A stretch of 64,000 nucleotides of DNA from assembly GCA_021234155.1 (NCBI GenBank), contig JAJEKV010000023.1:4733945-4797944 (forward strand). The letters run 5' to 3'. The notes under the pieces were generated by a model that was not told the DNA's origin, did no database searches, and worked only from the letters and a program-made list of their open reading frames with translations. Every line of letters starts with the position of its first letter. Within the stretch, counting starts at the first letter, position 1. This document shows, in pieces, positions 164-37,235 of the stretch. The DNA is from Isoetes taiwanensis. Lineage: Eukaryota > Streptophyta > Lycopodiopsida > Isoetales > Isoetaceae. The position numbers were made by a program, and so were the translations under genes.

Positions 164-3100
164 CTGCTGCTCTTGACTTAGAATCTGAGACTCTGTTTTT
201 TATTAAGCTCCACCCCTCTAAGGTTATCACCTATAGGAAAGATACTAGTGACTTATTGTGCACATTAAGATGCTTGACAAAGGGATACTACAAGATTAAT
301 TTGCACAAGCAAAGTTATTGGCAAAATCATTATGACTCTAGCTGACAAATTTTCTATGTTTAGTATGGAAACTAAATTATATATGCTCATTTATGAAGCT
401 ACCTGAAACATTGTCAATAATGCATGGGGATAGTCATCAAATGTGGTTGCACCCCAATTGGTATTCAGAAACATCTAAAACAATAATAAGAAGCATCAAG
501 TCAGAATCTCATGAAAATTCCACCATACAATAGATTACTAGACTCTTCTAGCCATTAGGAATGACGGACCAACACAAGATCCTTATTTATTTCACTGGCC
601 TACTTGATAATAAGAAATTACTATCATAATAAGTGGCTCAGATTATGCCATAACATCAATCACCTCTGGCTCAATATAAAAGACCATCCATGAAATTTCT
701 TTAAGATTTTGATCTGTGGAGACCCTTAACTGTTACTTTTGCAAAATCCATGATGACTTTGAAAGGACTTACCCACTTCAGTTTCGAAGGCGTAACATGG
801 CTCCTGCCAGAGCTTTGAACAAGAAACTACAATTTGAAGCAGCGTATGGGGCACAGCCTGATGTATCAACCCTCACAATTTTTGGATGCTTGGCTTTCAT
901 TACAAGAAGCTTGCAAACCATCACCAAAAGGATTTGCAGATATTTCGATACTACTAAACAAGAATTTGTTTTCTTCAGACAGTTTGCAATATGTAGAAAA
1001 AGGTATCTATGAGTTGGAAAATCAGGCCCACTTCATCAATGGCTATGATGCAATCTTTTAACTTATGTTGCAAGGAGCATCTGATGGTCCTCTTTATGAA
1101 ATAGTGGCTTTGTATACGAAGAACCAGGGCCTGCGGGTAAATAATCTTCTGAAATTATACTCTCATATATTTTAGAGTATATTATATACCTCCATAGCAT
1201 GGAGAGTACGCAACCTATTCCGAGTGCAAAATTGAGAATGCCTTCTTCAAGGGACGAGAATGATGAAGGTTGATGGCAGGCAACCTGGAGGAAGAAGATC
1301 GTGATAATCCCACAATGACCCTCAAACCTATTCCAACAAGGAGCATAAGTGGTTCTACGCCATCAAGGAGAAGTTTAACATGCTGCAGAAAAAATACAGA
1401 AACCTGCAAGAAAAACATTCTAGATGCTAAACAGGCCTTTAGGATCAAGTTCCTTTGAGTGAGAAGCAGCGGGAGGGTTTGAAGAACACAAGAGGTTTTG
1501 CGTCTATGTACTCTCAGGACACTAATTGCACTTGATCCTATGCGTCCGACCATCTGAATTTTAGGTTTTGCGTCTGTGTGCTCTCAGGACACTAATTGCA
1601 CTTGATCCTATGACTGCCCGACCATCTGAATTTTGATTAACTGTACTTCATAAGGTCAAGAGAACTTTACATGCACCTAGGCGTTGGCATAAGGTAACAA
1701 CCAACAATCTTGATTCATGGGGAAATTGTGCGTTATTATACTTGATGCTACATGTCTCCTGCAGCAGACCAAAGATGCTACGGAAAAGAACTTTGTGACG
1801 CCAAGAATTGCTAGTCAAATTCTATATGGAATCTCGCAAGGCAGCAGCATACCTTTAAAAACCAAGGCAAATGCAATTACTCACATCATACTGACACAGA
1901 TTCAACTTTCAATGGGCAGTTTGGAGGAAGGAGAAAGTGCATCCAAGAAGGAAGGGATCATCTCTATGAAGAATATGGGCGATATAAACATTATATGGTG
2001 ACATGTACAAACGTGCCCATGTGGCAACTTATATATAACTAATCTAAGGTTATCGTCACAAGTGTAACATTTATGTAGCAAACCCTATAGCTATCCATCA
2101 TAGTATCACATTATATTGTCATTGTCACACCTTCCTAATGCCATTATTCATTTGTTCCCTCCGTAAGGGACATCATTTATATTCCAAACCTGAAACTTTC
2201 AAACTTGTTGCCGAAAGGTTTTGTAAAGATGTCAGTAACCTGGTCAATTGATCTCCTGCAATTGTATACTTGCGTAGCCATCTAATGCTTTGTCCCTAAT
2301 GAAAGGTCAGCATGTTATCGATGTGTTTGATATTGTTATGCATGCTGCCTGATGTTCCTTTAAACCAATTTCTATGAGTTTATGAATCCACCCTAATTCA
2401 CATGTTGCAGGCTTTACCTTCAGCTTAGTGCTAGCATCGTAGGCTGTAACTAGCACCTTTGACAAGCAAAAAGTATAGTCCATGACCTTCTAGCATCTCC
2501 GCAGGCTGCCCTATCAGCAATCAAAGTACAGTTGTGTTCTCCAATGGAATTCACAATACAAAGACCTGATTGTAGTGAGGTGATTCAATCCTCCAATCGA
2601 TTCCTGTACTGTGAATTGTACAACTTCGTAGCTTATTTCCAGTTTCTTTATATGCACATCTCTTTGGTGGTTCTCATTTGCCCCGACAATCCTCCTGGCT
2701 TGATAAGGTGAGTTCATAGACATGAAAACCAAGACATTATTTGTCCTGAAAGTCCATCAGCTGTTGCAACGTGGTTAGGCCCCAAAACAGATCAGTGTGG
2801 AGCCCCAATATGCTTTGTTCCAACGTGGAAGGAGGAAAGCCAATGAAAGATGGGAATGGGGACTGCCTACAATGAAATCCTTCAATCAACTATTTCAGTC
2901 CAACTAGACCATTCAAATCCTTCTATATGCTGAAGAGCTTAAGCAAAGCCCAGCAATGTTCCTTTCAGAAGATGATAAAGTCGAAATAAGGACACAAATT
3001 GTATTATTAATAAAAGTGTGTAGGAAGTCTATATTTTATGGACATAACAAGACCTATGCAGACATTAATACCTTTCAGCTTTCCTTTCCCTTTGAACACA

Positions 3101-6100
3101 TGTTTTTCCATAAATTTCTAGTACAATCATGCTGCATTAATTTCCACTATACTGGTTATTCCAAATATCACAGTTGACATTACATCATATTTTAACAACC
3201 AACCCGAATGTAACTTATCAAAAGAAAAGGAAATACCAGGCATTTTTGGTTTTGCTCAGCTATACATTGATAACCATAGTAATGAGTGGGATCCTTCATA
3301 TCACACCAACGCCACGGATAAGCGCGTTGATTATCAGTTGTTCGGATGCACCTAAAATGTCCCTTTGTAGACAATCAGACATTCAATAAGATTGTTATGT
3401 TACTAGATTCAAAACATTATCAAGGGCAAAGCAACGTAAGCTATTGAAATTCATCCCAAGGTTGGACCAGGTTGCCATTCTAAGGCATAAATGGGATACC
3501 TATGATAAAGGACACTGGTAACTTTTTTGGATTAATACTACTTGATCTTCGATCAAGACCAGCTTTTTGTTTATTACATCAAACGTCTGTGGGAGATCAC
3601 TAAGAAAATACTGAAGCATTAGAAAATTAAAAAACTTAGGATATTTTTGTAGAGCAAAGAAAAGGTGAATACTTAGGAAACTTTTGTCTTTTTCCTGCAA
3701 AGAAAAAGATGAATACGGCCTTGTTTTCTCTCTTATTTTCTCTCTTAAATGACTGTTGCTTGTTTGCTGCTCTTTCGTAGATCCTCTCTAAGGAGACAAC
3801 AGATGGAGACAACTAGATGGGTCCCGACGTGACTTCTACTTGTTTCATTATCAGGACAGGGCGGGACAGGGCAGGACACTAGATGGAGACAATTAGATGG
3901 GTCCGGACATGACTGCCCCTTGTTTCCGGAACGGAACGAAACATGTTGATGTCACGCCTACAAGACCATCAATATGAGACATTCAAGAAAGTACATATTT
4001 TTAATGACACTAATTCTAGTGTGTCCGCAGATAAGACATCACTTGTTCCTCTCAAATCATCCTCAAATTCTTCAATAAGATTAAGAACTCTATATTCTCT
4101 CACCGCTCAGTAAAAGCATTTCGATAAGTAAGCCACCTGTATTTTTATATGTGCAAGCTCAAAGAAACTGGTAAGGGATTTGACCCTGATCAAAATTCGT
4201 CACGCAGTCCTTGATAGGCCAAAGAATCTAGAATTGCTTGAACCACATCCTCCCTCGAGGAATCTCCCCCCATCTTCCAACTTCCACACCAAGATGATGT
4301 GAACTAAGTCTCATTCGGCATATTACATGTCTCATTTTAGAAGACATGTTTTCAGAAAGACATGGTAGTTCTCAAAGAAAGGGGGTTCAAATGTCAGAGG
4401 TAGAATATCACTTTAATCCCACCATTATGCCACAACTTAATGCATAAGTGCTCCCACACTCAACTCCTGATTCTGGATTTATTTTTAGGAGATGATCAAT
4501 TGGACTATATGTGCAACCACAATTTCCTTTATGGTTACTTCCACTGAGTGCCATTTTTGGGAGACTCTTTTCTTCCATGTCCATTACTTTGCTATGTATG
4601 CTAATAGTTGGCATAAAGCCCCTCCTTCTAGCGTCGTCATAGTGCATTGTCATCATACTGCACTCTGCTAACATCATCTCATAAGGTACTCGCAACTTAA
4701 CACCTAGTTCAGCAAGAAGAAACTTTTTCTGCACCTTCTCAATTGGGTCTGTAAGGCTAGCCCTGGTCACTAGTAATTTCTATAACATCTTTTCCCTCCA
4801 AAGTTCATGATTTCTACCTTTTTACACTTCCTTTGCATTGCAAAAGAGCTCTTATTCCACCCTCAGCACTTTGTTCAACCACTTTATTCCATCTATAATT
4901 TTGGTCTACTATAACTCCCAAATATAACATTTTTATCATTGCAACTAGATCCCTTTGTAATAGAATGACAATTTATCCATGTTTGTGGTTCCAAAACCAG
5001 AATTTATCTTACATTCACCGTTATTTCTTTAGGACTCCAACACATTCTGCATGCCTTCTTCACTTCTAGACATTAAAACTATATAGCCTGCATATAAGAG
5101 CAGAAGGATAACAAAACCTGCAAGCCTTGTATACCTCTCATAATCAATAACCAAGCCTCCAGCTCATTGATAAATATCCCAAAACGTGGGAGAGAGCGGA
5201 CAGCCCTACAATACTTTGCACCAAATCTGTATATTTTTCCAAGGAGGGATACAAGAATTTCGTCAAAAACTCTTCATATAGTTTAGCAATAGCATTTCTG
5301 AGATCTCAGGTGCCCCTACCCTTTCCATGCTTTCCCACAAATTCTTCTTATCATATCAAAAGCTTTAGAGAAATCCACAAATGCAGCAACTAGTGGGTGC
5401 TTTGTACCTTTACAGAATCAATGGTTGCTCTAAGTGTGACCAGATGATCTATGGTACACTTCTTGGGGTGAAACCCTGCTTGCGTCTTTGATCTGGCATT
5501 GTTTGCCTCAGCCCAAGAGCTTAACTTTGTCTCTAAATGGTAGTCAACAATTTCTAGAGAGACTGCTCACCATAATCATTCTGTAATTATTTGGTCCGGG
5601 TCATCTCCTACTTTATGTCCTGGGATCCCTCTGTTTAACTTCCACGACAGACGTAGCTTTTCCCATGGCACATCATTCTTAATATTGGGTGAGTACCTAG
5701 ATTAGTGATGAACCTCCTCATTTAAGTATCTCAGCCACTAACCCACATGCATCTGCTGCCTTGCCACATGAGAGTTTTTCAATGCCCATTTTTCTTTAAA
5801 ATATTTAACCTTTCTTTCCTGATGTTATAATATCATTTTACTCCTAGTATATGATAAAGTTTTTTAACCTGTTCAAGTAGAACATCCGTTTTTATTTATT
5901 TAGATGGTGCTTCTTAGCTTTCAAGTGACTACAGAACTTTGCGTGGATTATCCATCAATTTCCTTTATTAACACTTCTTGCTTTCGTGCTAAGAAAAATC
6001 GTTTCTTCATTCTAACCAGCTTCATATATTCTTTTCCAATCACCCTTGTATACCTCTCATAATCAACAACCAAGCTTCCAGCTCATTGATAAATATCCCA

Positions 6101-9100
6101 AAAACGTGGGAGAGAGCGGACAGCCCTACATTACTTTGCACCAAATCTGTATATTTTTCCAAGGAGGGATACAAGAATTTCGTCAAAAACTCTTCATATA
6201 GTTTAGCAATAGCATTTCTGAGATCTCAGGTGCCCCTACCCTTTCCATGCTTTCCCACAAATTCTTCTTATCATATCAAACGCTTTAGAGAAATCCACAA
6301 ATGCAGCAACTAGTGGGTGCTTTGTACCTTTTACAGAATCAATGGTTGCTCTAAGTGTGACCAGATGATCTATGGTACACTTCTTGGGGTGAAACCCTGC
6401 TTGCGTCTTTGATCTGGCATTGTTTGCCTCAGCCCAAGAGCTTAACTTTGTCTCAAAATGGTAGTCAACAATTTCGAGAGAGACTGCTCACCATAATCAT
6501 TCTGTAATTATTTGGTCCGGGTCATCTCCTACTTTATGTACTGGGATCCCTCTGTTTAACTTCCACGACAGACGTAGCTTTTCCCATAGCACATCATTCT
6601 TAATATTGGGTGAGTACCTAGATTAGTGATGAACCTCCTCATTTAAGTATCTCAGCCACTAACCCACATGCATCTGCTGCCTTGCCACATGAGAGTTTTT
6701 TCAATGCCCATTTTTTTCTTTAAAATATTTAACCTTTCTTTCCTGGTGTTATAACATCATTTTACTCCTAGTATATGATAAAGTTTTTTAACCTGTTCAA
6801 GTAGAACATCCGTTTTTTTATTTATTTAGATGGTGCTTCTTAGCTTTCAAGTGACTCCAGAACTTGCATGGATTATCCATCAATTTCCTTTATTAACACT
6901 TCTTGCTTTCGTGCTAAGAAAAGTCGTTTCTTCATTCTAACCAGCTTCATATATTCTTTTCCAATCACCCTTCTATGAGTCCCTCTTGCCTTATCATTTT
7001 GAGCTCTTTTCAGAGTACAATTTCAGAGTACAATCCTGGCCAAACCACCCATTGCATTATGGAGGGGGAACTGTTTACCAACCAAAATGACGAGCCAAGA
7101 ACCACCCGAGTGACCAGACAGAAGGAGCCAACCAACACAACACCAAGTCTTATGGGGAGCCAACTACGTGATCCAAAGGAGAGAGCCAACCAGTCATGAC
7201 CAAGCCAAGGGAGAATTGTCTACCAGTCAAGAACCACAAGGCGTAACCAGGCAGGAGGAGCCAACCAACACAACACTGGCAAGTCAATACCCCACCATCA
7301 AGATGTCCACGAATCTGACGAACTTCATGAGGGGGAGGTAGGTTCCTCGAAGTGGCAATAAAACCTGCCTCATAATAGGCATGAAAATGAAATGCTCCTT
7401 TATGTGTCAAGTGATTATTCAAATACCCTGGATTAAAACTTGGGAAAATCTGAAGATATCCAAGCTGCGTTTCATGTTTGTTGTTCCCATGTTCAATGAG
7501 ATAACACATCGGGGCCATTACATTGACAGAAAAAAGAGAAAGTTACTTTTTGATACAATTCCAAGGAACTGTCTCTTTCAAGAACTGCTGGAAGTGACAT
7601 TGTTATATGTATATGACGTTATTGTATAAGATCTATTAAAGACTATAGCCATGCTGGAAAAATCAATGCTTCTGATGTTCTCAAAATGCTGTCCATCTTT
7701 CAGTACTTTTGGTAAAGTCAAGCACATCATCGGGCCAAAATGGACAAACTTGACAAAAACATTGTCCAAGATGATCAAGTGATTTGTCGACTGACTTCTA
7801 TTGTTGCAGCAAAATCTCCCATGCATCTTCACTCTTGGCCTGTATATCGTTCCCAAGCCCAAGCAGTTTCCTGGAGGCCTGTCTTTCAATAGTAAGGGTG
7901 CTTGGAGGCACAAGTGCCTGCTTTAACTGAATAGTGTATCTCAATCCTTCTTTATGCTGGATGACATGTTCTTATCCTCATTCTTTGAGGGCCTTTGTTG
8001 TAGCTTACAGCTCTAGAGAATTTTTCTGAGGAAATAGAGCTCAGGATAAACATGGATAAGTCAAAGGTGATGACAGCATGAGCATGCATGCATTGCAACT
8101 TCTTCTAGTTTATGGTTCTATTTTATGGGCACTCCATGATCAGGTTGTATATTTTGTATCTTTGCCATGTCACCTTTTTTTCTGCTTTTCTTTTGCGCCC
8201 TGGGCCGGGGGAGGGGGAGGGGGGACCCCCATGCTTCCTTCACATCATGCAATCTAACCCCAAACACCTCCCAAATGCAATTTCTCTTTTTTCTTTTTTT
8301 TCCTCTTTTTTTTTGAACCGAGGGGTTGGGCAAAAGGAAGATTACCCCAGCTAGGAACAATAGGTCCTGACAGTGGCTTGTAAACTTGTTACTCTGGTTC
8401 TAAAACAATTATTGTATGGTCAAAATAGAGGGACACCTTTGTTTTACAGGCCCCCACACGCCCACAAATTTTTCTCACATACCCATGCAAGTCCTTCCAA
8501 AATAAAACAATTTTTGTTTTTTCTTACAGCATCACTCACAGTATTATGGGCCTGCAAGATGGGCAATAACTGGGCACTTAAGTAGCGGGCAAGATTACCA
8601 ACTATACGATCATCCCTCTTTGCATGCAATTCTCATTTGTTAAGCATCAGTGAAGGAGACACTCTGGAATTACTTCCTAAAAGAAAATTTTATCTAATAA
8701 AGCTATTAAAAGAGCAAAAGCATGTTAGAGAGAGATTTTATTATCTGTGCCAGCATTTAACATCCCAAATCATAGAGTTGTCATTTTGCAATTATCCAGA
8801 CATGCATGCATACACACCAAGCTTTAATGCACTGCAATGATCTACAGAATAATCGCAAAATGGGATATAGTAAGAAGCAAGGAGCAAACTGACCTCTTAT
8901 TAAGGGATCCATCCAGAAATTGGATAGCTATTTGGGCATAATACGAGCACAGGAACAACGTCAACAAAATGACATTCCTAAGTGGCCAAACACTTTTCCT
9001 GACAGCAGCCATGATATCCTGCAAACTTTAACATGCGTCTCTGATTTCAAAAACTGATAGAACCATAAAAATCACCTACTTTCTTTATCATTAGCATGCC

Positions 9101-11974
9101 TAACAAGCAGCAGATAATGGCAGGATGCTACAACGAGGAAATAAGCAATCGAACAGTCAGTTTAACTAATCAACAGACTGCAAATTTCCTTGTAGTTTTT
9201 CGCAAAGGTAGTTATGCGATTGGAGGAAGTTTGCTGTATTCATGTATGGACTTAAATAAACAGACAACGGCCTATAAAAAGTCAAGGCTGTGCAATATTG
9301 ATAAATCACATTTCATTGTGTTGCCTTATCACTTTGAATTTGATGCTGTTGTTACAACTGAAGAAGCAAAAAGAGTGGCGAGAGAGAAAACTCAAGAGAC
9401 TCCCCAGGCAAACACAGAAAAATCCCCACAGAAGAAGATGCATTGTTGGATGCATAACAGCTTCAAGGTAATACACAGGAGTCCAACGCATGGAGCCTAA
9501 AATGAAAATAAAGTTTCTAGTCTTTCTACTGCTGTCACAGAAGGAGATGCATTGTTGCATAACAGCTTCAAGGTAATACACAGGAGTCCAAAGCATGAAG
9601 CCTAAAATAGAAACAAAATTGGTAGTCTTTCTACTGCCCTACAAGTTTTAGAACCTTTTTCACTGTCACTCATACTTATGTAGCACAAAGAATAAGCCTC
9701 TAAAGCAAAATCCTCCTTCGATTGCATTTTTGGAGGGTAGAATCAAAATGCAAACCCTAGAGGAGTCAACAAAATAGAGGGAAGTGATTAAAATTGTAGC
9801 ATATAATCAAAGTACTTGGACTCGTTTACATGCTGGACATGAGAATGAACTGGCCATCTTCACTGGCCCACATATAATACTGCATTATATGTGCATTTCA
9901 ATGCAAATAAGAAATGCTTCCAATCCTGGCGAAGCATGTCACCATATGCGTTTGAGGTAAAATGACTGGTCATCTTCACTGACCCACATATAATACTGCA
10001 TTATATGTGCAGTTCAATGCAAATAAGAAACGCTTCCAATCCTGGCGAAGCATGTCACCATATGCGTTTGAGGTAAAATGATAGTCATTATTGCCCACTT
10101 TCATGTTTTAATGCACATTATTGTTTACTGCCCATAACCCAGAACCTAGTTGGAAGTGTAGTGATGAAGGGTCCAAATAAAGGAAGCAGGACCAATACAG
10201 CTGGTAATTTAAATGCCCATATACTAACCAGCAACCACCATAATCATAGAAACTAATTTCTGCTCTGATCAAATCCACTTATTATTAACCCATGGCTGTC
10301 CTCTGGCTTACATTTTTTTAGTGTTGATATAAGTCAATCTTATTAGTCACCTCAATCTAGCATCTTAACATGAATCTAATGTATTCCAGAAAACGTCAAG
10401 CCAGAACATACTATGACATCAGAAAAGAAGGATATGTTTTGTAGGGCAAGCAAGCCACGGAATGCTCGAAAGACTGCAACTCGAGCAAAAGTGTCGGATC
10501 CTGTAGCACTCCTTACAAAAATATGCACCCTATGAAACGCAAATCATATTAGTCAACTATTCTGCATTTCAAAAGCTTAATATTGACGGTAGGGAGAAAC
10601 TTACCAAGAGTCAATTACAATAAGGAAGTCAAGCCTGTTATAAGCATTTCGAAGGAAAGAATGTGGTCCCATTACAAATCCTAGACAGGCAATGCGTAGC
10701 AATAACTCCACTCTGCATGAAAATTTATAAAAATTGCTTACTTGAACGTCATGTTGAAACTGAAATATACATTTCAGTTAATACGAGGCCTCACGTATAG
10801 AAGAGCGTCAAGGCTGCATCTGCAAGTTCAAGATCGAACTGCTTTTCATGAGTCCACTGTTCTTGCGCTGTACCCTTAAATATGAGCACTAAGAGATGAG
10901 ACACAATCAGAGCCAACACAAAGTATTCCGTTTTTCTGACAGTGGATCCAATTAAGGAAAAAAAAAAAAAAAAAAAAAAAAAAAAGATAAAAGAATCCTT
11001 AAGAAAGTGTGGAAAAGGCATGCCTTAGGAGGATACTGATTATACAAAAGGAGAAATAGCCTAATACGGGCGGGACTATGGAAACTCCATATTCCGAGAG
11101 CATAGCCATCAAGCCTTGCACCAGGTCCCATTGCACTGGACGTAATTTTCTTCCTCATAATCTAAATGAACAAAGGAGGAGAAATTTTATCAAGCCTCCT
11201 ATAGGTCTGGAATACCTGCATTAGTAGACACGAGGTGGGCCTCCACTTACTATATGCCTTTTAACAGCAAGGTATGCTTTGGACCAATTGTCCTTTGCAG
11301 GGGGTAACGGAGCTGCTGGAGCTGCTATTTCTTTAAGCACTTCCAAAACCTCGGCAGACCTTGGTGGGGCCTCCTTCGAAATATTCTCACTGATCAAAGC
11401 ATCTTCGGTGACTGGACGAACAGGTGGTAGTGGTGCTTCCCACGTTGGATTTTTCTTAAGAAAATCTGGATGATCTTCCAAATCTGATTCTCCCCTATAT
11501 AACTTTCAATACATTAGCAAGTATGCTGTCATATTTTCAATGCAAGGCTTTTAGATTTCATTGAATTTCAAACATGTAAGGCTAAAGAATAACATCGCTC
11601 ATCCTACAAGAAACACAGTTGAAGGCATTATATTTATTTTCCGGCCAAGGAACAGTGTTATTCGAAAGATGTTATGGTGATCTCTAAAAGATGCTGACAT
11701 GTTTCTACAAATTTTCTGCTGCAAACATTTGACTATGACATTCCTCTATATGTTCATTGATTCTAGGGAAAAATGAAGATACATACATGGCAGGAGCGAC
11801 TGTGTTAGCTACGGCAACTGCAGCATTGGATAAACTTTTCGACAACCGGCGCTGCGCATCTGCAACTCCAGATATGGTGCGAGACAATCGACGTTGCACA
11901 CCTTGTCCTGTATCTAATGCAAACTGCACAGCGCTGGCCCTTCTGACAGAGCTGCGTCTTTCCTGACTATCCAT
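164..11974 (-). CDS. CaV-like voltage-gated cation channel, domain I exons (copy A)
   Basis: Predicted plasma-membrane voltage-gated Ca2+/cation channel, assembled from exons with GT-AG borders. Exons (minus strand): 11,787-11,974; 11,251-11,494; 11,037-11,161; 10,795-10,935; 10,605-10,712; 10,412-10,529; 8,894-9,018; 403-474; 164-230. The first seven join in frame for about 349 codons. The N-terminus is basic and Ser/Arg-rich. S1 starts KTEYFVLALIVSHLLVLIF; S2-S3 has VELLLRIACLGF and NRLDFLIVIDSW; S4 has RVAVFRAFRGLLALQ; the S4-S5/S5 exon has RKSVWPLRNVILLTLF. The pore exons read FDDYPHALLTMFQ then VITLEGW, matching the CaV filter with its acidic residue. Exon 8 enters in phase 0 while exon 7 leaves two bases, so one or more small exons between 500 and 8,890 are missing from this model. 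S6 and later exons lie left of the window. Plant TPC1 pores look different, so TPC is unlikely. Confidence 0.75.
716..1012 (+). mobile_element. Ty1/copia polyprotein remnant (copy A)
   Basis: A 98-codon open stretch resembles the end of copia integrase leading into reverse transcriptase: the phrase PDVSTLTIFGCLAF matches the widely conserved copia PDxSxLRxFGCLAY block, preceded by ARALNKKLQFEAAYG in place of the usual NKTPYEAW. No other complete domain is nearby, so this is a degraded fragment in an intron of the minus-strand channel gene. Confidence 0.6.
2190..2760 (-). mobile_element. Ty1/copia RNase H tail remnant (copy A)
   Basis: On the minus strand about 2,200-2,262 reads DQVTDIFTKPFGNKF, the near-universal C-terminal copia block (DQLADIFTKPL). 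Just upstream (about 2,300) KHID is readable, as in the TKHIDxRxHFI block. Stops interrupt it. It lies opposite in strand to the fragment at 716-1,012, so two separate copia remnants sit in the same channel intron. Confidence 0.6.
4408..6972 (-). mobile_element. LINE reverse-transcriptase remnant (copy A)
   Basis: Minus-strand fragments match the LINE at 48.6-51.1 kb: KKFLLAELGVKLRVPYEMML here against KKFLLTELGVKVQTPYPMML there, and GGIRALFAMQRKC against GLKALYAMQRKC. The catalytic box is degraded: LLLLYAGYIVLM replaces LLYADDIVIL near 5,075-5,105. Stops and frameshifts are frequent, so it is a dead element. The reverse-transcriptase part is internally duplicated (5,125-6,043 and 6,044-6,972). 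It sits in the long channel intron. Confidence 0.7.
5125..6972 (+). repeat. Tandem duplication, two units of about 919 bp (copy A)
   Basis: The unit starting CCTTGTATACCTCTCATAATCAA at 5,125 restarts at 6,044 with a few substitutions. It lies inside the LINE remnant and covers its palm-region sequence. The same arrangement is present in copy B, so it predates the 25-kb duplication. Confidence 0.9.
6973..8890. other. Channel intron with degenerate repeats and low-complexity tracts (copy A)
   Basis: No gene is supported. At 7,080-7,290 a phrase of the form AGGAGCCAACCAACACAACAC occurs twice, within a Pro/Thr-rich frame that looks like element debris. At 8,170-8,330 there are T-, G- and C-rich runs. 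The copy B equivalent is 31,931-33,850, where the homopolymers are longer. Confidence 0.45.
9432..9640 (+). repeat. Imperfect tandem repeat, two units of about 109 bp (copy A)
   Basis: GATGCATTGTTG(GATG)CATAACAGCTTCAAGG and the following CACAGGAGTCCAA recur at 9,432 and 9,541. The copy B equivalent is about 34,385-34,590. It lies in a channel intron. Confidence 0.8.
9850..10081 (+). repeat. Tandem repeat, two units of 116 bp (copy A)
   Basis: CTGGCCATCTTCACTGGCCC at 9,850 and CTGGTCATCTTCACTGACCC at 9,966 begin two units. Each contains the near-palindrome CATATAATACTGCATTATATG. The copy B equivalent is 34,806-35,036. It lies in a channel intron. Confidence 0.85.
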
Positions 11975-12265
11975 TTGGTCTGACCGGAAAGGAAGAGATC
12001 AACGAATTGCCCAAATCCTCCAAGCACAAATTCCTCAACTCCGGCAGCAATGAAATGTAACAACCACCACCTGTGCCTTTCCTTATCCTCGCCCTCCGGT
12101 TTGAAAATCTGTAGAATCGTCCTACGTGGCTATATTATGGCCGTAGATTGTTTCTTCTGGTTATGGTGAAATAAAAAAGTCACATGAGGGTTCCACGTGG
12201 TACCGAACGGCCCAGGCTACGACAATTTCTAGGATTGCTGGCAATAAATCCCAACGTAATACTAA

Positions 12266-12980
12266 GGGCGAAATCACACTAGGGCACCTGCCCAATTCTG
12301 GAATTTGAATATACGTGATGAAATGGGCAAGTGCCCAGACACACGTCCGAGCATTGTATCACACTAGGGCACCTGCCCAAGCGCCACGTAACAACGGTCA
12401 AGATTCCGTTCCAAGGTCACCCACCACGCCTTGCAGAATAGAGCATTACGTCAGCGAAGGATTTCACGCCCCTAATCGTATGCCATTGGTCTTGGGCGGA
12501 TCAAGAGCTCTAATCTGTGCCCCCTTTGCATTGTCTTGCGAAATTCCAAACAAGAACAACCATATGGTTTCGGAATGGAAAAACGTCTCAGGAGCTTCAA
12601 GAAATGGGGCGTGAAAAAAAACCTTGCTCAACTGGGGTCGAGGGTGAGAAAATTTGCGACAAATTTTGGGAGGGCCGAAGTTTTGGGCGGCGGTGAGGGG
12701 CGGGCAAGGCCATGGCGAGAATGAATGAAATTGCGGCGGCCCCAGCTATGGCGATGAAAGCATGGGGGCCCCGGATCGGCGATACGTTGATGATATGGCA
12801 TGGTGCCCAAACTTTGGGCACCCTTCGGGTTAAATAGAAATTCATCCGTGTGCCCAAGTCGAAGCATCATTTTGGGCATGTTGGTGTGATAGCACGAAGT
12901 GCCCAACTTGGCCACTTGGAGAATTTTAATAAGACGGGGAATTTTTTATTAATGGCCGAGCACATGGTGTGATGTCGCCC
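12266..12980. mobile_element. Harbinger/Tourist-like MITE (copy A)
   Basis: Left end GGGCGAAATCACAC and right end, read in reverse complement, GGGCGACATCACAC, with TAA immediately outside on both sides (12,263-12,265 and 12,981-12,983). A 3-bp TAA duplication with GG(G)-starting inverted repeats is the PIF/Harbinger hallmark. Length 715 bp, no transposase. It lies about 290 bp upstream of the channel start codon, so it may affect that promoter. Confidence 0.75.
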
Positions 12981-12996
12981 TAAATCGCTATACCAA

Positions 12997-14110: not shown

Positions 14111-14239
14111 GGGGTGTTGATTGGCACCGTTACGGGGGTGTATATACCGGCTTCGCCCTAACGGGCTCGCCATGGCCTTACCTGCGTGAATGGCACGCCA
14201 CCGAACATTACCCCTAACTAAATCGATATACCAACTCTA

Positions 14240-20690: not shown

Positions 20691-20699
20691 ACGAGGGCA

Positions 20700-21919: not shown

Positions 21920-22109
21920 CCAGCTACCTTTTACGTTACAAATCTTGTCTCTAACCTCTTAAGCTCCTTGAGATGCTCCACCTATATGGAAACTATGATC
22001 AAATAACTCCACACAGAGAGAGAAGAAACTGAGAGAAGAAACTAAGGACAAGGTAATACCTTTTGCATAAGTTTTTCTCTGTCTGTTAGCATTCCTTTTC
22101 TAGGATGAC

Positions 22110-25559: not shown

Positions 25560-25961
25560 TTGAAAGGACTTACCCACTTCAGTTTTCATATGTAACATGG
25601 CTCCTGCCAGAGCTTTGAACAAGAAACTGCAATTTGAAGCAGCGTATGGGGCACAGCCTGATGTATCAACCCTCACAATTTTTGGATGCTTGGCTTTCAT
25701 TACAAGAAGCTTGCAAACCATCACCAAAAAGGATTTGCAGATATTTCGATACTACTAAACAAGAATTTGTTTTCTTCAGACAGTTTGCAATATGTAGAAA
25801 AAGGTATCTATTGTATCAACCCTCACAATTTTGGATGCTTGGCTTTCATTACAAGAAGCTTGCAAACCATCACCAAAAGGATTTGCAGATATTTCGATAC
25901 TACTAAACAAGAATTTGTTTTCTTCAGACAGTTTGCAATATGTAGAAAAAGGTATCTATGA
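25560..25961 (+). mobile_element. Ty1/copia polyprotein remnant (copy B) with a local 150-bp duplication
   Basis: Counterpart of 716-1,012, with the same PDVSTLTIFGCLAF block. Here a segment starting TGTATCAACCCTCACAATTT is repeated in tandem (25,662-25,811 and 25,812-25,958), giving two copies of FGCLAF-ITRS coding sequence. Copy A has one. The extra unit is a copy-B-specific insertion or an assembly slip. Confidence 0.6.
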
Positions 25962-27144
25962 GTTGGAAAAATCAGGCCCACTTCATCAATGGCTATGATG
26001 CAATCTTTTTAACTTATGTTGCAAGGAGCATCTGATGGTCCTCTTTATGAAATAGTGGCTTTGTATACGTAAGAACCAGGGCTCATGGTAAATAATCTTC
26101 TGAAATTATACTCTCATATATTTTAGAGTATATTATATACCTCCATAGCATGGAGAGCATGCAACCTATTCCGAGTGCAAAATTGAGAATGCCTTCTTCA
26201 AGGGACGAGAATGATGAAGGTTGATGGCAGGCAACCTGGAGGAAGAAGATCGCGGATAATCCCACAATGACCCTCAAACCTATTCCAACAAGGAGCATAA
26301 GTGGTTCTACGCCATCAAGGAGAAGTTTAACATGCTGCAGAAAAAATACAGAAACCTGCAAGAAAACATTCTAGATGCTAAACAGGCCTTTAGGATCAAG
26401 TTCCTTTGAGTGAGAAGCAGCGGGAGGGTTTGAAGAACACAAGAGGTTTTCGCGCCTATGTACTCTCAGGACACTAATTGCACTTGATCCTGCGCGTCCG
26501 ACCATCTGAATTTTAGGTTTTATGCCTGTGTGCTCTCAGGACACTAATTGCACTTGATCCTATGACTGCCCGACCATCTGAATTTTGATTAACTGTAATA
26601 CTTCATAAGGTCAAGAGAACTTTACATGCACCTAGGCGTTGGCATAAGGTAACAACCAACAATCTTGATTCATGGGGAAATTGTGCGTTATTATACTTGA
26701 TGCTACATGTCTCCTGCAGCAGACCAAAGATGCTACGGAAAAGAACTTTGTGACGCCAAGAATTGCTAGTCAAATTCTATATGGAATCTCGCAAGGCAGC
26801 AGCATACCTTTAAAAACCAAGGCAAATGCAATTACTCACATCATACTGACACAGATTCAACTTTCAATGGGCAGTTTGGAGGAAGGAGAAAGTGCATCCA
26901 AGAAGGAAGGGATCATCTCTATGAAGAATATGGGCGATATAAACATTATATGGTGACATGTACAAACGTGCCCATGTGGCAACTTATATATAACTAATCT
27001 AAGGTTATCGTCACAAGTGTAACATTTATGTAGCAAACCCTATAGCTATCCATCATAGTATCACATTATATTGTCATTGTCACACCTTCCTAATGCCATT
27101 ATTCATTTGTTCCCTCCGTAAGGGACATCATTTATATTCCAAAC

Positions 27145-27715
27145 CTGAAACTTTCAAACTTGTTGCCGAAAGGTTTTGTAAAGATGTCAGTAACCTGGTC
27201 AATTGATCTCCTGCAATTGTATACTTGCGTAGCCATCTAATGCTTTGTCCCTAATGAAAGGTCAGCATGTTATCGATGTGTTTGATATTGTTATGCATGC
27301 TGCCTGATGTTCCTTTAAACCAATTTCTATGAGTTTATGAATCCACCCTAATTCACATGTTGCAGGCTTTACCTTCAGCTTAGTGCTAGCATCGTAGGCT
27401 GTAACTAGCACCTTTGACAAGCAAAAAGTATAGTCCATGACCTTCTAGCATCTCCGCAGGCTGCCCTATCAGCAATCAAAGTACAGTTGTGTTCTCCAAT
27501 GGAATTCACAATACAAAGACCTGATTGTAGTGAGGTGATTCAATCCTCCAATCGATTCCTGTACTGTGAATTGTACAACTTCGTAGCTTATTTCCAGTTT
27601 CTTTATATGCACATCTCTTTGGTGGTTCTCATTTGCCCCGACAATCCTCCTGGCTTGATAAGGTGAGTTCATAGACATGAAAACCAAGACATTATTTGTC
27701 CTGAAAGTCCATCAG
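27145..27715 (-). mobile_element. Ty1/copia RNase H tail remnant (copy B)
   Basis: Almost identical counterpart of 2,190-2,760, with the same DQVTDIFTKPF block on the minus strand and the same stops. Confidence 0.6.
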
Positions 27716-29362
27716 CTGTTGCAACGTGGTTAGGCCCCAAAACAGATCAGTGTGGAGCCCCAATATGCTTTGTTCCAACGTGGAAGGAGGAAAGCCAATG
27801 AAAGATGGGAATGGGGACTGCCTACAATGAAATCCTTCAATCAACTATTTCAGTCCAACTAGACCATTCAAATCCTTCTATATGCTGAAGAGCTTAAGCA
27901 AAGCCCAGCAATGTTCCTTTCAGAAGATGATAAAGTCGAAATAAGGACACAAATTGTATTATTAATAAAAGTGTGTAGGAAGTCTATATCTTATGGACAT
28001 AACAAGACCTATGCAGACATTAATACCTTTCAGCTTTCCTTTCCCTTTGAACACATGTTTTTCCATAAATTTCTAGTACAATCATGCTGCATTAATTTCC
28101 ACTATACTGGTTATTCCAAATATCACAGTTGACATTACATCATATTTTAACAACCAACCCGAATGTAACTTATCAAAAGAAAAGGAAATACCAGGCATTT
28201 TTGGTTTTGCTCAGCTATACATTGATAACCATAGTAATGAGTGGGATCCTTCATATCACACCAACGCCACGGATAAGCGCGTTGATTATCAGTTGTTCGG
28301 ATGCACCTAAAATGTCCCTTTGTAGACAATCAGACATTCAATAAGATTGTTATGTTACTAGATTCAAAACATTATCAAGGGCAAAGCAACGTAAGCTATT
28401 GAAATTCATCCCAAGGTTGGACCAGGTTGCCATTCTAAAGGCATAAATGGGATACCTATGATAAAGGACACTGGTAACTTTTTGGATTAATACTACTTGA
28501 TCTTGATCAAGACCAGCTTTTTGTTTATTACATCAAACGTCTGTGGGAGATCACTAAGAAAATACTGAAGCATTAGAAAATAAAAAACTTAGGATATTTT
28601 TTGTAGAGCAAAGAAAAGGTGAATACTTAGGAAACTTTTGTCTTTTTCCTGCAAAGAAAAAGATGAATACGGCCTTGTTTTCTCTCTTATTTTCTCTCTT
28701 AAATGACTGTTGCTTGTTTGCTGCTCTTTCGTAGATCCTCTCTAAGGAGACAACAGATGGAGACAACTAGATGGGTCCCGACGTGACTTCTACTTGTTTC
28801 ATTATCAGGACAGGGCGGGACAGGGCAGGACACTAGATGGAGACAATTAGATGGGTCCGGACATGACTGCCCCTTGTTTCGAACGGAACTAAAAACATGT
28901 TGATGTCACGCCTACAAGACCATCAATATGAGACATTCAAGAAAGTACATATTTTTAATGACACTAATTCTAGTGTGTCCATGAGATAAGACATCACTTG
29001 TTCCTCTCAAATCATCCTCAAATTCTTCAATAAGATTAAGAACTCTATATTCTCTCACCGCTCAGTAAAAGCATTTAGATAAGTAAGCCACCTGTATTTT
29101 TTATGTGCAAGCTCAAAGAAACTGGTAAGGGATTTGACCCTGATCAAAATTAGGCCACGCAGTCCTTGATAGGCCAAAGAATCTAGAATTGCTTGAACCA
29201 CATCCTCCCTCGAGGAATCTCCCCCCATCTTCCAACTTCCACACCAAGATGATGTGAACTAAGTCTCATTCGGCATATTACATGTCTCATTTTAGAAGAC
29301 ATGTTTTCAGAAAGACATGGTAGTTCTCAAAGAAAGGGGGTTCAAATGTCAGAGGTAGAATA

Positions 29363-31930
29363 TCACTTTAATCCCACCATTATGCCACAACTTAATGCAT
29401 AAGTGCTCCCACACTCAACTCCTGATTCTGGATTTATTTTTAGGAGATGATCAATTGGACTATATGTGCAACCACAATTTCCTTTATGGTTACTTCCACT
29501 GAGTGCCATTTTTGGGAGACTCTTTTCTTCCATGTCCATTACTTTGCTATGTATGCTAATAGTTGGCATAAAGCCCCTCCTTCTAGCGTCGTCATAGTGC
29601 ATTGTCATCATACTGCACTCTGCTAACATCATCTCATAAGGTACTCGCAACTTAACACCTAGTTCAGCAAGAAGAAACTTTTTCTGCACCTTCTCAATTC
29701 GTCTGTAAGGCTAGCCCTGGTCACTAGTAATTTCTATAACATCTTTTTCCCTCCAAAGTTCATGATTTCTACCTTTTTACACTTCCTTTGCATTGCAAAA
29801 AGAGCTCTTATTCCACCCTCAGCACTTTGTTCAACCACTTTATTCCATCTATAATTTTGGTCTACTATAACTCCCAAATATAACATTTTTATCATTGCAA
29901 CTAGATCCCCTTTGTAATAGAATGACAATTTATCCATGTTTGTGGTTCCAAAAACCAGAATTTATCTTACATTCACCGTTATTTCTTTAGGACTCCAACA
30001 CATTCTGCATGCCTTCTTCACTTCTAGACATTAAAACTATATAGCCTGCATATAAGAGCAGAAGGATAACAAAACCTGCAAGCCTTGTATACCTCTCATA
30101 ATCAATAACCAAGCCTCCAGCTCATTGATAAATATCCCAAAAACGTGGGAGAGAGCGGACAGCCCTACAATACTTTGCACCAAATCTGTATATTTTTCCA
30201 AGGAGGGATACAAGAATTTCGTCAAAAACTCTTCATATAGTTTAGCAATAGCATTTCTGAGATCTCAGGTGCCCCTACCCTTTCCATGCTTTCCCACAAA
30301 TTCTTCTTATCATATCAAAAGCTTTAGAGAAATCCACAAATGCAGCAACTAGTGGGTGCTTTGTACCTTTTACAGAATCAATGGTTGCTCTAAGTGTGAC
30401 CAGATGATCTATGGTACACTTCTTGGGGTGAAACCCTGCTTGCGTCTTTGATCTGGCATTGTTTGCCTCAGCCCAAGAGCTTAACTTTGTCTCTAAATGG
30501 TAGTCAACAATTTCTAGAGAGACTGCTCACCATAATCATTCTGTAATTATTTGGTCCGGGTCATCTCCTACTTTATGTCCTGGGATCCCTCTGTTTAACT
30601 TCCACGACAGACGTAGCTTTTCCCATGGCACATCATTCTTAATATTGGGTGAGTACCTAGATTAGTGATGAACCTCCTCATTTAAGTATCTCAGCCACTA
30701 ACCCACATGCATCTGCTGCCTTGCCACATGAGAGTTTTTCAATGCCCATTTTTCTTTAAAATATTTAACCTTTCTTTCCTGATGTTATAATATCATTTTA
30801 CTCCTAGTATATGATAAAGTTTTTTAACCTGTTCAAGTAGAACATCCGTTTTTTATTTATTTAGATGGTGCTTCTTAGCTTTCAAGTGACTACAGAACTT
30901 GCGTGGATTATCCATCAATTTCCTTTATTAACACTTCTTGCTTTCGTGCTAAGAAAAATCGTTTCTTCATTCTAACCAGCTTCATATATTCTTTTCCAAT
31001 CACCCTTGTATACCTCTCATAATCAACAACCAAGCTTCCAGCTCATTGATAAATATCCCAAAAACGTGGGAGAGAGCGGACAGCCCTACATTACTTTGCA
31101 CCAAATCTGTATATTTTTCCAAGGAGGGATACAAGAATTTCGTCAAAAACTCTTCATATAGTTTAGCAATAGCATTTCTGAGATCTCAGGTGCCCCTACC
31201 CTTTCCATGCTTTCCCACAAATTCTTCTTATCATATCAAACGCTTTAGAGAAATCCACAAATGCAGCAACTAGTGGGTGCTTTGTACCTTTTACAGAATC
31301 AATGGTTGCTCTAAGTGTGACCAGATGATCTATGGTACACTTCTTGGGGTGAAACCCTGCTTGCGTCTTTGATCTGGCATTGTTTGCCTCAGCCCAAGAG
31401 CTTAACTTTGTCTCAAAATGGTAGTCAACAATTTCGAGAGAGACTGCTCACCATAATCATTCTGTAATTATTTGGTCCGGGTCATCTCCTACTTTATGTA
31501 CTGGGATCCCTCTGTTTAACTTCCACGACAGACGTAGCTTTTCCCATAGCACATCATTCTTAATATTGGGTGAGTACCTAGATTAGTGATGAACCTCCTC
31601 ATTTAAGTATCTCAGCCACTAACCCACATGCATCTGCTGCCTTGCCACATGAGAGTTTTTCAATGCCCATTTTTCTTTAAAATATTTAACCTTTCTTTCC
31701 TGGTGTTATAACATCATTTTACTCCTAGTATATGATAAAGTTTTTTAACCTGTTCAAGTAGAACATCCGTTTTTTATTTATTTAGATGGTGCTTCTTAGC
31801 TTTCAAGTGACTCCAGAACTTGCATGGATTATCCATCAATTTCCTTTATTAACACTTCTTGCTTTCGTGCTAAGAAAAGTCGTTTCTTCATTCTAACCAG
31901 CTTCATATATTCTTTTCCAATCACCCTTCT
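29363..31930 (-). mobile_element. LINE reverse-transcriptase remnant (copy B)
   Basis: Counterpart of 4,408-6,972. The C-terminal piece reads open at 29,363-29,689 (KKFLLAELGVKLRVPY) and the post-palm piece at 29,734-29,937 (LGVIVDQNYRWNKVVEQ, matching LGLIVDHNYNWNKAVQQ in the LINE at 49.7 kb). It carries the same internal 0.92-kb tandem duplication (30,083-31,003 and 31,004-31,930). Confidence 0.7.
30083..31930 (+). repeat. Tandem duplication, two units of about 921 bp (copy B)
   Basis: Counterpart of 5,125-6,972. Units start CCTTGTATACCTCTCATAATCAA at 30,083 and 31,004. Substitutions that separate unit 1 from unit 2 in copy A are kept in copy B. Confidence 0.9.
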
Positions 31931-34900
31931 ATGAGTCCCTCTTGCCTTATCATTTTGAGCTCTTTTCAGAGTACAATTTCAGAGTACAATCCTGGCCAAA
32001 CCACCCATTGCATTATGGAGGGGGAACTGTTTACCAACCAAAATGACGAGCCAAGAACCACCCGAGTGACCAGACAGAAGGAGCCAACCAACACAACACC
32101 AAGTCTTATGGGGAGCCAACTACGTGATCCAAAGGAGAGAGCCAACCAGTCATGACCAAGCCAAGGGAGAATTGTCTACCAGTCAAGAACCACAAGGCGT
32201 AACCAGGCAGCAGGAGCCAACCAACACAACACTGGCAAGTCAATACCCCACCATCAAGATGTCCACGAATCTGGCCGAACTTCATGAGGGGGGAGGTAGG
32301 TTCCTCGAAGTGGCAATAAAACCTGCCTCATAATAGGCATGAAAATGAAATGCTCCTTTATGTGTCAAGTGATTATTCAAATACCCTGGATTAAAACTTG
32401 GGAAAATCTGAAGATATCCAAGCTGCGTTTCATGTTTGTTGTTCCCATGTTCAATGAGATAACACATCGGGGCCATTACATTGACAGAAAAAAGAGAAAG
32501 TTACTTTTTGATACAATTCCAAGGAACTGTCTCTTTCAAGAACTGCTGGAAGTGACATTGTTATATGTATATGACGTTATTGTATAAGATCTATTAAAGA
32601 CTATAGCCATGCTGGAAAAATCAATGCTTCTGATGTTCTCAAAATGCTGTCCATCTTTCAGTACTTTTGGTAAAGTCAAGCACATCATCGGGCCAAAATG
32701 GACAAACTTGACAAAAACATTGTCCAAGATGATCAAGTGATTTGTCGACTGACTTCTATTATTTGCAGCAAAATCTCCCATGCATCTTCACTCTTGGCCT
32801 GTATATCGTTCCCAAGCCCAAGCAGTTTCCTGGAGGCCTGTCTTTCAATAGTAAGGGTGCTTGGAGGCACAAGTGCCTGCTTTAACTGAATAGTGTATCT
32901 CAATCCTTCTTTATGCTGGATGACATGTTCTTATCCTCATTCTTTGAGGGCCTTTGTTGTAGCTTACAGCTCTAGAGAATTTTTCTGAGGAAATAGAGCT
33001 CAGGATAAACATGGATAAGTCAAAGGTGATGACAGCATGAGCATGCATGCATTGCAACTTCTTCTAGTTTATGGTTCTATTTTATGGGCACTCCATGATC
33101 AGGTTGTATATTTTGTATCTTTGCCATGTCACCTTTTTTTTTTTCTGCTTTTCTTTTTTCGCCCTGGGGGGGGGGGGAGGGGGACCCCATGCTTCCTTCA
33201 CATCATGCAATCTAACCCCAAACACCTCCCAAATGCAATTTCTCTTTTTTTTTTTTCCTTTTTTTTTTTTTTTTTGAACCGAGGGGGTTGGGCAAAGGAA
33301 GATTACCCCAGCTAGGAACAATAGGTCCTGACAGTGGCTTGTAAACTTGTTACTCTGGTTCTAAAACAATTATTGTATGGTCAAAATAGAGGGACACCTT
33401 TGTTTTACAGGCCCCCCCCGCCCACAAATTTTTCTCACATACCCATGCAAGTCCTTCCAAAATAAAACAATTTTTGTTTTTCTTACAGCATCACTCACAG
33501 TATTATGGGCCTGCAAGATGGGCAATAACTGGGCACTTAAGTAGCGGGCAAGATTACCAACTATCACGATCATCCCTCTTTGCATGCAATTCTCATTTGT
33601 TAAGCATCAGTGAAGGAGACACTCTGGAATTACTTCCTAAAAAGAAAATTTTATCTAATAAAGCTATTAAAAGAGCAAAAGCATGTTAGAGAGAGATTTT
33701 ATTATCTGTGCCAGCATTTAACATCCCAAATCATAGAGTTGTCATTTTGCAATTATCCAGACATGCATGCATACACACCAAGCTTTAATGCACTGCAATG
33801 ATCTACAGAATAATCATAAAATGGGATATAGTAAAACAAGGAGCAAACTGACCTCTTATTAAGGGATCCATCCAGAAATTGGATAGCTATTTGGGCATAT
33901 CTGAGCACAGGAACAACGTCAACAAAATGACATTCCTAAGTGGCCAAACACTTTTCCTGACAGCAACCATGATATCCTGCAAACTTTAACATCGTCTCTG
34001 ATTTCAAAACTGATAGAACCATAAAAATCACCTACTTTCTTTATCATTAGCATGCCTAACAAGCAGCAGATAATGGCAGGATGCTACAACGAGGAAATAA
34101 GCAATCGAACAGTCAGTTTAACTAATCAACAGACTGCAAATTTCCTTGTAGTTTTTCGCAAAGGTAGTTATGCGATTGGAGGAAGTTTGCTGTATTCATG
34201 TATGACGAAATAAACAGACAACGGCCTATAAAAGTCAAGGCTGTGCAATATTGTGCAATCACATTTCATTGTGTTGCCTTATCACTTTGAATTTGATGCT
34301 GTTGTTACAACTGAAGAAGCAAAAAGAGTGGCGAGAGAGAAAACTCAAGAGACTCCCCAGGCAAACACAGAAAAATCCCCACAGAAGAAGATGCATTGTT
34401 GGATGCATAACGGCTTCAAGGTAATACACAGGAGTCCAACGCATGGAGCCTAAAATGAAAATAAAGTTTCTAGTCTTTCTACTGCTGTCACAGAAGGAGA
34501 TGCATTGTTGCATAACAGCTTCAAGGTAATACACAGGAGTCCAAAGCATGAAGCCTAAAATAGAAACAAAATTGGTAGTCTTTCTACTGCCCTACAAGTT
34601 TTAGAACCTTTTTCACTGTCACTCATACTTATGTAGCACAAAGAATAAGCCTCTAAAGCAAAATCCTCCTTCGATTGCATTTTTTTGGAGGGTAGAATCA
34701 AAAATGCAAACCCTAGAGGAGTCAACAAAATAGAGGGAAGTGATTAAAATTGTAGCATATAATCAAAGTACTTGGACTCGTTTACATGCTGGACATGAGA
34801 ATGAACTGGCCATCTTCACTGGCCCACATATAATACTGCATTATATGTGCATTTCAATCCAAAAAAAAATGCTTCCAATCCTGGTGAAACATGTCACCAT

Positions 34901-37235
34901 ATGCGTTTGAGGTAAAATGACTGGTCATCTTCACTGACCCACATATAATACTGCATTATATGTGCAGTTCAATGCAAATAAGAAACGCTTCCAATCCTGG
35001 CGAAGCATGTCACCATATGCGTTTGAGGTAAAATGATAGTCATTATTGCCCACTTTCATGTTTTAATGCACATTATTGTTTACTGCCCATAACCCAGAAC
35101 CTAGTTGGAAGTGTAGTGATGAAGGGTCCAAATAAAGGAAGCAGGACCAATACAGCTGGTAATTTAAATGCCCATATACTAACCAGCAACCACCATAATC
35201 ATAGAAACTAATTTCTGCTCTGATCAAATCCACTTATTATTAACCCATGGCTGTCCTCTGGCTTACATTTTTTTAGTGTTGATATAAGTCAATCTTATTA
35301 GTCACCTCAATCTAGCATCTTAACATGAATCTAATGTATTCCAGAAAACGTCAAGCCAGAACATACTATGACATCAGAAAAGAAGGATATGTTTTGTAGG
35401 GCAAGCAAGCCACGGAATGCTCGAAAGACTGCAACTCGAGCAAAAGTGTCGGATCCTGTAGCACTCCTTACAAAAATATGCACCCTATGAAACGCAAATC
35501 ATATTAGTCAACTATTCTGCATTTCAAAAGCTTAATATTGACGGTAGGGAGAAACTTACCAAGAGTCAATTACAATAAGGAAGTCAAGCCTGTTATAAGC
35601 ATTTCGAAGGAAAGAATGTGGTCCCATTACAAATCCTAGACAGGCAATGCGTAGCAATAACTCCACTCTGCATGAAAATTTATAAAAATTGCTTACTTGA
35701 ACGTCATGTTGAAACTGAAATATACATTTCAGTTAATACGAGGCCTCAATTATAGAAAGGCGTCAAAGCTGCATCTGCAAGTTCAAGATCGAACTGCTTT
35801 TCATGAGTCCACTGTTCTTGCGCTGTACCCTTAAATATGAGCACTAAGAGATGAGACACAATCAGAGCCAACACAAAGTATTCCGTTTTTCTGACAGTGG
35901 ATCCAATTAAGGAAACAAAAAAAAAAAAAAAAAAAAAAAAAAAGATAAAAGAATCCTAAAGAAAGTGTGGAAAAGGCATGCCTTAGGAGGATACTGATTA
36001 TACAAAAGGAGAAATAGCCTAATACGGGCGGGACTATGGAAACTCCATATTCGAGAGCATAGCCATCAAGCCTTGCACCAGGTCCCATTGCACTGGACGT
36101 AATTTTCTTCCTCATAATCTAAATGAACAAAGGAGGAGAAATTTTATCAAGCCTCCTATAGGTCTGGAATACCTGCATTAGTAGACACGAGGTGGGCCTC
36201 CACTTACTATATGCCTTTTAACAGCAAGGTATGCTTTGGACCAATTGTCCTTTGCAGGGGGTAACGGAGCTGCTGGAGCTGCTATTTCTTTAAGCACTTC
36301 CAAAACCTCGGCAGACCTTGGTGGGGCCTCCTTCGAAATATTCTCACTGATCAAAGCATCTTCGGTGACTGGACGAACAGGTGGTAGTGGTGCTTCCCAC
36401 GTTGGATTTTTCTTAAGAAAATCTGGATGATCTTCCAAATCTGATTCTCCCCTATATAACTTTCAATACATTAGCAAGTATGCTGTCATATTTTCAATGC
36501 AAGGCTTTAATATTTCATTGAATTTCAAACATGTAAGGCTAAAGAATAACATCGCTCATCCTACAAGAAACACAGTTGAAGGCATTATATTTATTTTCCG
36601 GCCAAGGAACAGTGTTATTCGAAAGATGTTATGGTGATCTCTAAAAGATGCTGACATGTTTCTACAAATTTTCTGCTGCAAACATTTGACTATGACATTC
36701 CTCTATATGTTCATTGATTCTAGGGAAAAATGAAGATACATACATGGCAGGAGCGACTGTGTTAGCTACGGCAACTGCAGCATTGGATAAACTTTTCGAC
36801 AACCGGCGCTGCGCATCTGCAACTCCAGATATGGTGCGAGACAATCGACGTTGCACACCTTGTCCTGTATCTAATGCAAACTGCACAGCGCTGGCCCTTC
36901 TGACAGAGCTGCGTCTTTCCTGACTATCCATTTGGTCTGACCGGAAAGGAAGAGATCAACGAATTGCCCAAATCCTCCAAGCACAAATTCCTCAACTCCG
37001 GCAGCAATGAAATGTAACAACCACCACCTGTGCCTTTCCTTATCCTCGCCCTCCGGTTTGAAAATCTGTAGAATCGTCCTACGTGGCTATATTATGGCCG
37101 TAGATTGTTTCTTCTGGTTATGGTGAAATAAAAAAGTCACATGAGGGTTCCACGTGGTACCGAACGGCCCAGATCCTACCATTAGGCTACGACAATTTCT
37201 AGGATTGCTGGCAATAAATCCCAACGTAATACTAA

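Follow-up and report, generated by a model that had tools for sequence, protein, structure and literature searches.

Genome sequence of the lycophyte Isoetes taiwanensis predicts an intact four-domain CaV-type channel gene

The lycophyte Isoetes taiwanensis very probably carries an intact nuclear gene for a CaV-type channel with four domains of six transmembrane segments (4x6TM), one of two paralogues, most likely inherited vertically from algal ancestors. The gene reaches into the left part of a 64,000-nucleotide stretch of assembly GCA_021234155.1 (contig JAJEKV010000023.1, here C1027, positions 4733945-4797944). We call this whole stretch the window; coordinates without a contig name are window positions, and negative ones lie to its left. 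All channel results come from this one genome, which was searched over 1,658,258,908 bases in 1110 contigs.

The gene was obtained by splicing the minus strand at phase-matched GT-AG sites and translating the joined exons. The full gene, hereafter copy A, runs on the minus strand from C1027:4745918 to C1027:4724257 and comprises 23 exons (5412 bases, 1803 amino acids), with no internal stop, a single terminal stop and GT-AG borders at 22 of 22 introns. It starts with the ATG at 11974, and its reading frame leaves the window on the left. Exons 1-10 are inside the window, while exons 11-23 lie to its left, at C1027:4733934-4724257, and encode segment S6 of domain I, domains II-IV, an EF-hand-like region and an IQ-like motif. 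The original prediction, made from the window sequence alone, had described one channel gene between 164 and 36931, whose exons with GT-AG borders spell domain I with the filter FQVITLEGW, and had expected domains II-IV further left. Splicing bore out these exons, on the minus strand, with their borders and the filter (FQ/VITLEGW), and domains II-IV were found on the expected side. Position 164 is indeed the donor of exon 10 (exon 230-164) and 36931 is an ATG, but this ATG belongs to a second, tandem copy (copy B); the exons in the window do not form a single gene, and the model running from 36931 to 164 was rejected as a mixture of two tandem copies. Similarly, the domain I exons are real, but S6 of the full gene, which had been counted among them, lies outside the window. 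The motif ATAESW does mark a genuine domain II exon, but the one seen in the window (about 22955) is that of copy B, the full gene having its own in exon 15 (C1027:4732283-4732039).

The paralogue is located on another scaffold (C1040:8167376-8140249) and encodes 1699 amino acids in 23 exons with no internal stop. Its introns have the same phase as those of the full gene at 22 of 22 sites, and 16 of the 23 exons are equal in length. The two proteins are 49.7% identical over 1674 aligned codons, with third positions differing most. By the NG86 method, nonsynonymous divergence (dN) is 0.454 and synonymous divergence (dS) 3.9, giving a dN/dS of about 0.12, a ratio that, with dS saturated, is only a rough guide. 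Constraint between the two paralogues is evident at the level of their coding sequences. Searching the genome with the full protein returned 39 matches: 27 on C1027 (both copies), four on C1040 and eight on an unplaced contig, C169. Ion_trans matches on C1028 (two) and C1025 (one) were set aside as K+ channels on account of a TVGYGD motif and a SKOR-like sequence, which we take to be marks of such channels. PF08016 (PKD/TRP) and PF01365 (IP3R/RyR) had no match in the genome, where their controls were silent too, so this result has no bearing on absence.

Further support for the identity of the protein was obtained from its domains. Following splicing, a hidden Markov model search, the check suggested with the original prediction, placed Pfam Ion_trans in four stretches of the protein (E 1.5e-127), a sequence similarity far beyond chance. 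In the PDB, the full protein scores 369.5 bits against CaV1.2, 290.6 against CaV3.3, 268.5 against NaV1.7, 210.3 against NALCN and 39.1 against TPC2. Among the best 60 of 131 matched sequences its closest solved relatives are CaV alpha-1 subunits, and this order of CaV, NaV and NALCN agrees with the CaV-like channel first proposed. Its domains I-II are collinear with domains I-II of CaV in the phmmer alignment. Animal CaV1-CaV3 alpha-1 subunits have in common with it the four domains, an acidic filter in each, collinearity over domains I-II and III-IV, the turret cysteines described below and a U12-type intron at S1 of domain I. The selectivity filters of domains I-IV are TLEGW, TAESW, TFDNW and TADNW, that is E/E/D/D, with lysine in none; the paralogue has the same E/E/D/D filter, its domain II reading TGESW. 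E/E/D/D is the charge pattern of the T-type CaV3 channels, whereas CaV1 and CaV2 have E/E/E/E, and the Isoetes protein differs from the animal channels in this respect as well as in its low identity to them. Turret cysteines are arranged 4-0-2-2 in both paralogues, with an additional cysteine in the turret of domain IV, 4-0-2-2 being the framework that a passage of PMC6259924 gives for 4x6TM channels; the domain I turret has 57 residues (52 in the paralogue) by our own bounds, against a range of 60-105 quoted in the same source. The protein thus resembles a complete voltage-gated cation channel whose filter would prefer Ca2+.

Other channel families fit less well. Plant TPC1 and animal TPC belong to the same Ion_trans superfamily but have two domains against four, and TPC2 reaches only 39 bits compared with 370 for CaV; therefore, a placement inside the TPC family, which would have contradicted the original prediction, does not hold. 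CatSper identity was ruled out on domain number alone, since four domains are joined in one chain. NALCN and fungal Cch1 also have four domains in one chain, and NALCN was rejected because of the lysine-free E/E/D/D filter and a score well under that of CaV. NaV channels are alike in their four domains, a U12-type intron at S1 of domain I and a short III-IV linker, but the Isoetes filter of domain III is without lysine and the full protein scores 269 bits for NaV versus 370 for CaV. Chlamydomonas CAV2 and the four-domain CaV channels of green algae resemble the Isoetes protein in architecture, in belonging to the green lineage and in coming from organisms with motile cilia.

Several observations weigh against a CaV-type channel. 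Arginine and lysine together number 3, 5, 7 and 3 in the S4 stretches of domains I-IV (6, 5, 7 and 5 in the paralogue), counted over stretches longer than S4 itself, and the charge-poor S4 of domain IV in the full gene suggests that gating may differ. The GPHH and IQ families score 24.2 bits (cut-off 26.8) and 15.7 bits (cut-off 20.3), both under the Pfam curated cut-offs. For domains III-IV of the paralogue the CaV and NaV scores overlap (CaV3.2 269.4, CaV2.3 265.4, eel NaV 241.7, NaV1.5 235.5, CaV2.1 230.5 and NALCN 190.9 bits), with CaV on top among the best 60 of 74 PDB matches. Moreover, dS between the paralogues is saturated, some borders, namely those of exon 3, of the U12 introns and at the ends of exons 13 and 17, were picked by hand where the scorer preferred another site, and parts of the gene recur with frameshifts in copy B and C169, where an assembly problem is possible.

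The four-domain protein could also be something other than a voltage-gated Ca2+ channel in function, for instance a leak or non-selective cation channel. The S4 segments are uneven, those of domains I and IV in the full gene holding few charges, which would fit such a function, and a passage of PMC6259924 counts E/E/D/D with the sites that are Ca2+-selective or non-selective. We consider it unlikely, given that the filter is without lysine, that NALCN scores well under CaV and is reported without the U12-type intron at S1 of domain I, and that S4 of the paralogue is better charged.

Evidence on descent came from the introns. Two of the 22 introns in each paralogue, 3 and 12, are U12-type and at matching places, with a GTATCC donor, a U12 branch site matching at 8-9 of 9 positions and the branch A 10-17 nucleotides from the acceptor. 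None of the other 20 introns in either paralogue has both donor and branch site, the best other branch site matching at 7/9, and U6atac small nuclear RNA was detected in the genome (eight matches, controls silent). Exons 1-3 add up to 557 bases (497 in the paralogue), and intron 3 therefore splits codon 186 (166) between its second and third bases; residues around it align gap-free to CaV1.3 in phmmer. In the numbering of SCN1A (sequence 7dtd_A), which rests partly on an assumed length of 2009, codon 128 is a serine 13 residues after the N of NPLR, and Q186 of the plant protein has the same offset after the S of SPAR. The splice variant reported for SCN1A in a passage of PMC8739186 is c.383+1A>G, and its intron is therefore in phase 2, with A at +1. 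According to an excerpt of PMC6259924, a U12-type intron at S1 of domain I is common to NaV1, NaV2 and CaV1-3 and absent from NALCN. By this sequence comparison, plant intron 3 and the animal NaV/CaV U12 intron agree in place, phase and class; the animal intron is AT-AC, whereas those of Isoetes are GT-AG. The other domain I introns (S2, S3 and S4) did not coincide with the SCN1A positions, the only ones used for comparison, the one in S3 being one codon off in equal phase, and thus only the U12 intron was counted. The second U12-type intron (12) lies in S1-S2 of domain II, exon 12 ending at C1027:4732721 and C1040:8149768. In rat Cacna1c, introns 2 and 13 are the two of the minor class, according to a passage of PMC8767276, and the domain II intron possibly corresponds to intron 13.

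That one U12 intron matches the animal NaV/CaV U12 intron in codon and phase favours vertical descent. Horizontal acquisition by the Isoetes lineage would produce a single isolated occurrence, and the family is said to be missing from other land plants. We hold it to be improbable, since the presence of 22 spliceosomal introns, and the match in codon and phase between a U12-type one and its animal counterpart, fit a common ancestor, although a transfer of genomic DNA could have brought introns along.

The window also holds a tandem duplication of about 25 kb, which takes up its left 46.7 kb and a further 3.2 kb to the left. Copies A and B are 97.3% identical over 4266 columns, 95.6% over 19542 and 84.1% over 1409 at the right end. 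Copy B breaks off near 21590, at a junction that falls within exon 17 (domain II-III linker); it has counterparts of exons 1-17, the last being partial, with the ATAESW domain II exon at 23142-22897. Compared with copy A, there is no difference in exons 1, 2, 5, 6, 8 and 9, a single base is missing from each of exons 3 and 7, and exons 10-17 show more indels; the channel part of copy B carries scattered indels of 1-4 bp. Over one block of 21,096 columns, 269 of 391 indels between the copies are of 1 bp and transitions and transversions number 291 and 303, the indel count leaving out the left 4.2 kb (exons 10-17) since blocks overlap there. Unplaced C169 (190,181 bases) bears channel exons 1-17 at 174001-190181 and ends inside exon 17, about 150 bases past the stop of copy B; its indels are of 1 bp in 46 of 62 cases against copy A and in 134 of 184 against copy B. 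C169 follows copy A past the left edge of the duplication and looks like an alternative haplotype. From their pattern, we read the differences among copy A, copy B and C169 as residual long-read error, whether the tandem copy arose by recent duplication or is an assembly duplicate accompanied by an alternative haplotype.

A dead or unexpressed relic, with the gene intact by chance or its good copy a product of polishing, would be in line with the frameshifts in copy B and C169 and with the charge-poor S4 of domain IV. This is very improbable in our view: two independent paralogues have full open frames and 22 matching intron phases, the rough dN/dS between them is low, and copy B and C169 differ mainly by 1-bp indels, with a transition to transversion ratio near 1, in the manner of unpolished long reads.

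Upstream of the channel, the duplication includes a short-chain dehydrogenase gene (42417-43235, plus strand; Pfam adh_short 8.6e-30), presumably like plant KCR1. It is a single frame in copy B and two frames in copy A (17552-17929 and 17939-18280, plus strand), the reverse of the channel, which is clean in copy A. Each copy contains a head-to-tail doublet of about 920 bp (5125-6976 and 30083-31932, 97.6-98.5% identical) carrying pieces of a reverse transcriptase of the long interspersed nuclear element (LINE) type, with frames equal in both copies.

As to the origin of the DNA, the full gene is on a 19.7-Mb scaffold (C1027) and the paralogue on a 15.0-Mb scaffold (C1040). GRAS is a plant-specific family; it has 118 matches in the genome, including C1027:1751737-1752486 and C1040:12334251-12334901, and matches 0 of 14 prokaryote controls. 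This context supports the view of the original prediction that the contig is plant. That the DNA is a contaminant from some aquatic alga, protist or animal, the plant having been grown non-axenically under water, is scarcely credible, even though the raw Isoetes assembly contained contaminants and non-plant contigs were filtered (as stated in part of PMC8566536), because gene and paralogue are inside scaffolds of this size, both with GRAS matches, and LINE-type fragments near the two loci resemble each other by tblastn. In the window, LINE-type retroelement pieces were seen on the minus strand at 49976-51064 and 55046-57282 (RVT_1 1.3e-14 and 4.9e-11; Exo_endo_phos 1.1e-10). Elsewhere in the assembly, rbcL was found on C840 with atpB and accD alongside, both recognised by eye. 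A second full-length rbcL match (C1052:5415903-5416829, a 512-residue open frame) lies at 5.4 Mb and is perhaps plastid DNA recently transferred.

Table 1. Channel features in the window (window positions; negative numbers lie to its left).
Feature	Position	Strand	Basis
Copy A exon 1, start codon at 11974, N-terminus	11787..11974	-	gene model
Copy A exon 2, N-terminal cytoplasmic part	11251..11494	-	gene model
Copy A exon 3, preceding domain I S1, with a U12-type donor at its end (codon 186, phase 2)	11037..11161	-	gene model; same exon in C1040 paralogue
U12-type intron 3, donor GTATCCTCC 7/9, branch site 9/9, branch A 16 nt from acceptor	10936..11036	-	intron scoring
Copy A exon 4, domain I S1	10795..10935	-	gene model
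Copy A exon 5, domain I S2-S3	10605..10712	-	gene model
Copy A exon 6, domain I S4 (3 arginines)	10412..10529	-	gene model, residue count
Copy A exon 7, domain I S4-S5 linker and S5	8894..9018	-	gene model
Copy A exon 8, domain I turret, four cysteines	3237..3351	-	gene model, cysteine count
Copy A exon 9, domain I pore helix	403..474	-	gene model
Copy A exon 10, domain I selectivity filter TLEGW	164..230	-	gene model
Copy B, counterparts of exons 1-17, ATG 36931 to junction inside exon 17	21592..36931	-	copy A/B alignment
Tandem duplication of about 25 kb holding the 5' part of the gene (copy A -3225..21587, copy B 21592..46675)	1..46675		self-alignment

In a CaV-type channel of this kind, the voltage-sensor domains would open a single pore with a Ca2+-preferring E/E/D/D filter, depolarisation would let Ca2+ enter, and feedback by Ca2+-calmodulin could come from the C-terminal region with its EF-hand-like and IQ-like parts. 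Its expression, membrane or ciliary location, gating and Ca2+ selectivity are inferred. A role in flagellated sperm would follow by analogy with Chlamydomonas CAV2. Such a ciliary role is plausible because the sperm of Isoetes are flagellated and the genome encodes a radial-spoke protein (PF04712, four matches on C1101, E 1.9e-36). Alternatively, the channel might serve the sporophyte, for example in action potentials or stress signalling.

Verret 2010 and Edel 2017 are reportedly the sources behind the statements that embryophytes are without such channels. Passages of PMC5824947, PMC6259924 and PMC11085791 state that embryophytes lack the CaV/FVCC family, and one review attributes the loss to disappearing motility and to less demand for fast Na+/Ca2+ signalling. 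In excerpts of PMC11085791, algal CaV is linked to flagellar motility, and centric diatoms are suggested to keep CaV since only they have flagellated gametes. Our search of the literature in PMC under Creative Commons licences recognised no report of a CaV from a lycophyte or from Isoetes. The intact CaV pair predicted here in a lycophyte contradicts the blanket statement of embryophyte absence.

It is tempting to propose, tentatively and at a little under an even chance, that CaV was kept past the origin of land plants, and that at least one vascular lineage whose sperm swim retained a pair of intact genes, complete with the U12 intron shared with animals, as a voltage-gated Ca2+ entry for sperm motility or chemotaxis, losses elsewhere being later and repeated. 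If inheritance was vertical, the CaV losses in land plants would be later and repeated, and the U12 intron at S1 of domain I, so far described for animal and choanoflagellate NaV/CaV, would predate the plant-animal split. The gene allows a direct test of voltage-gated Ca2+ entry in a vascular plant and of its link to flagellated sperm, and calcium signalling in plants with swimming sperm may thus need a second look.

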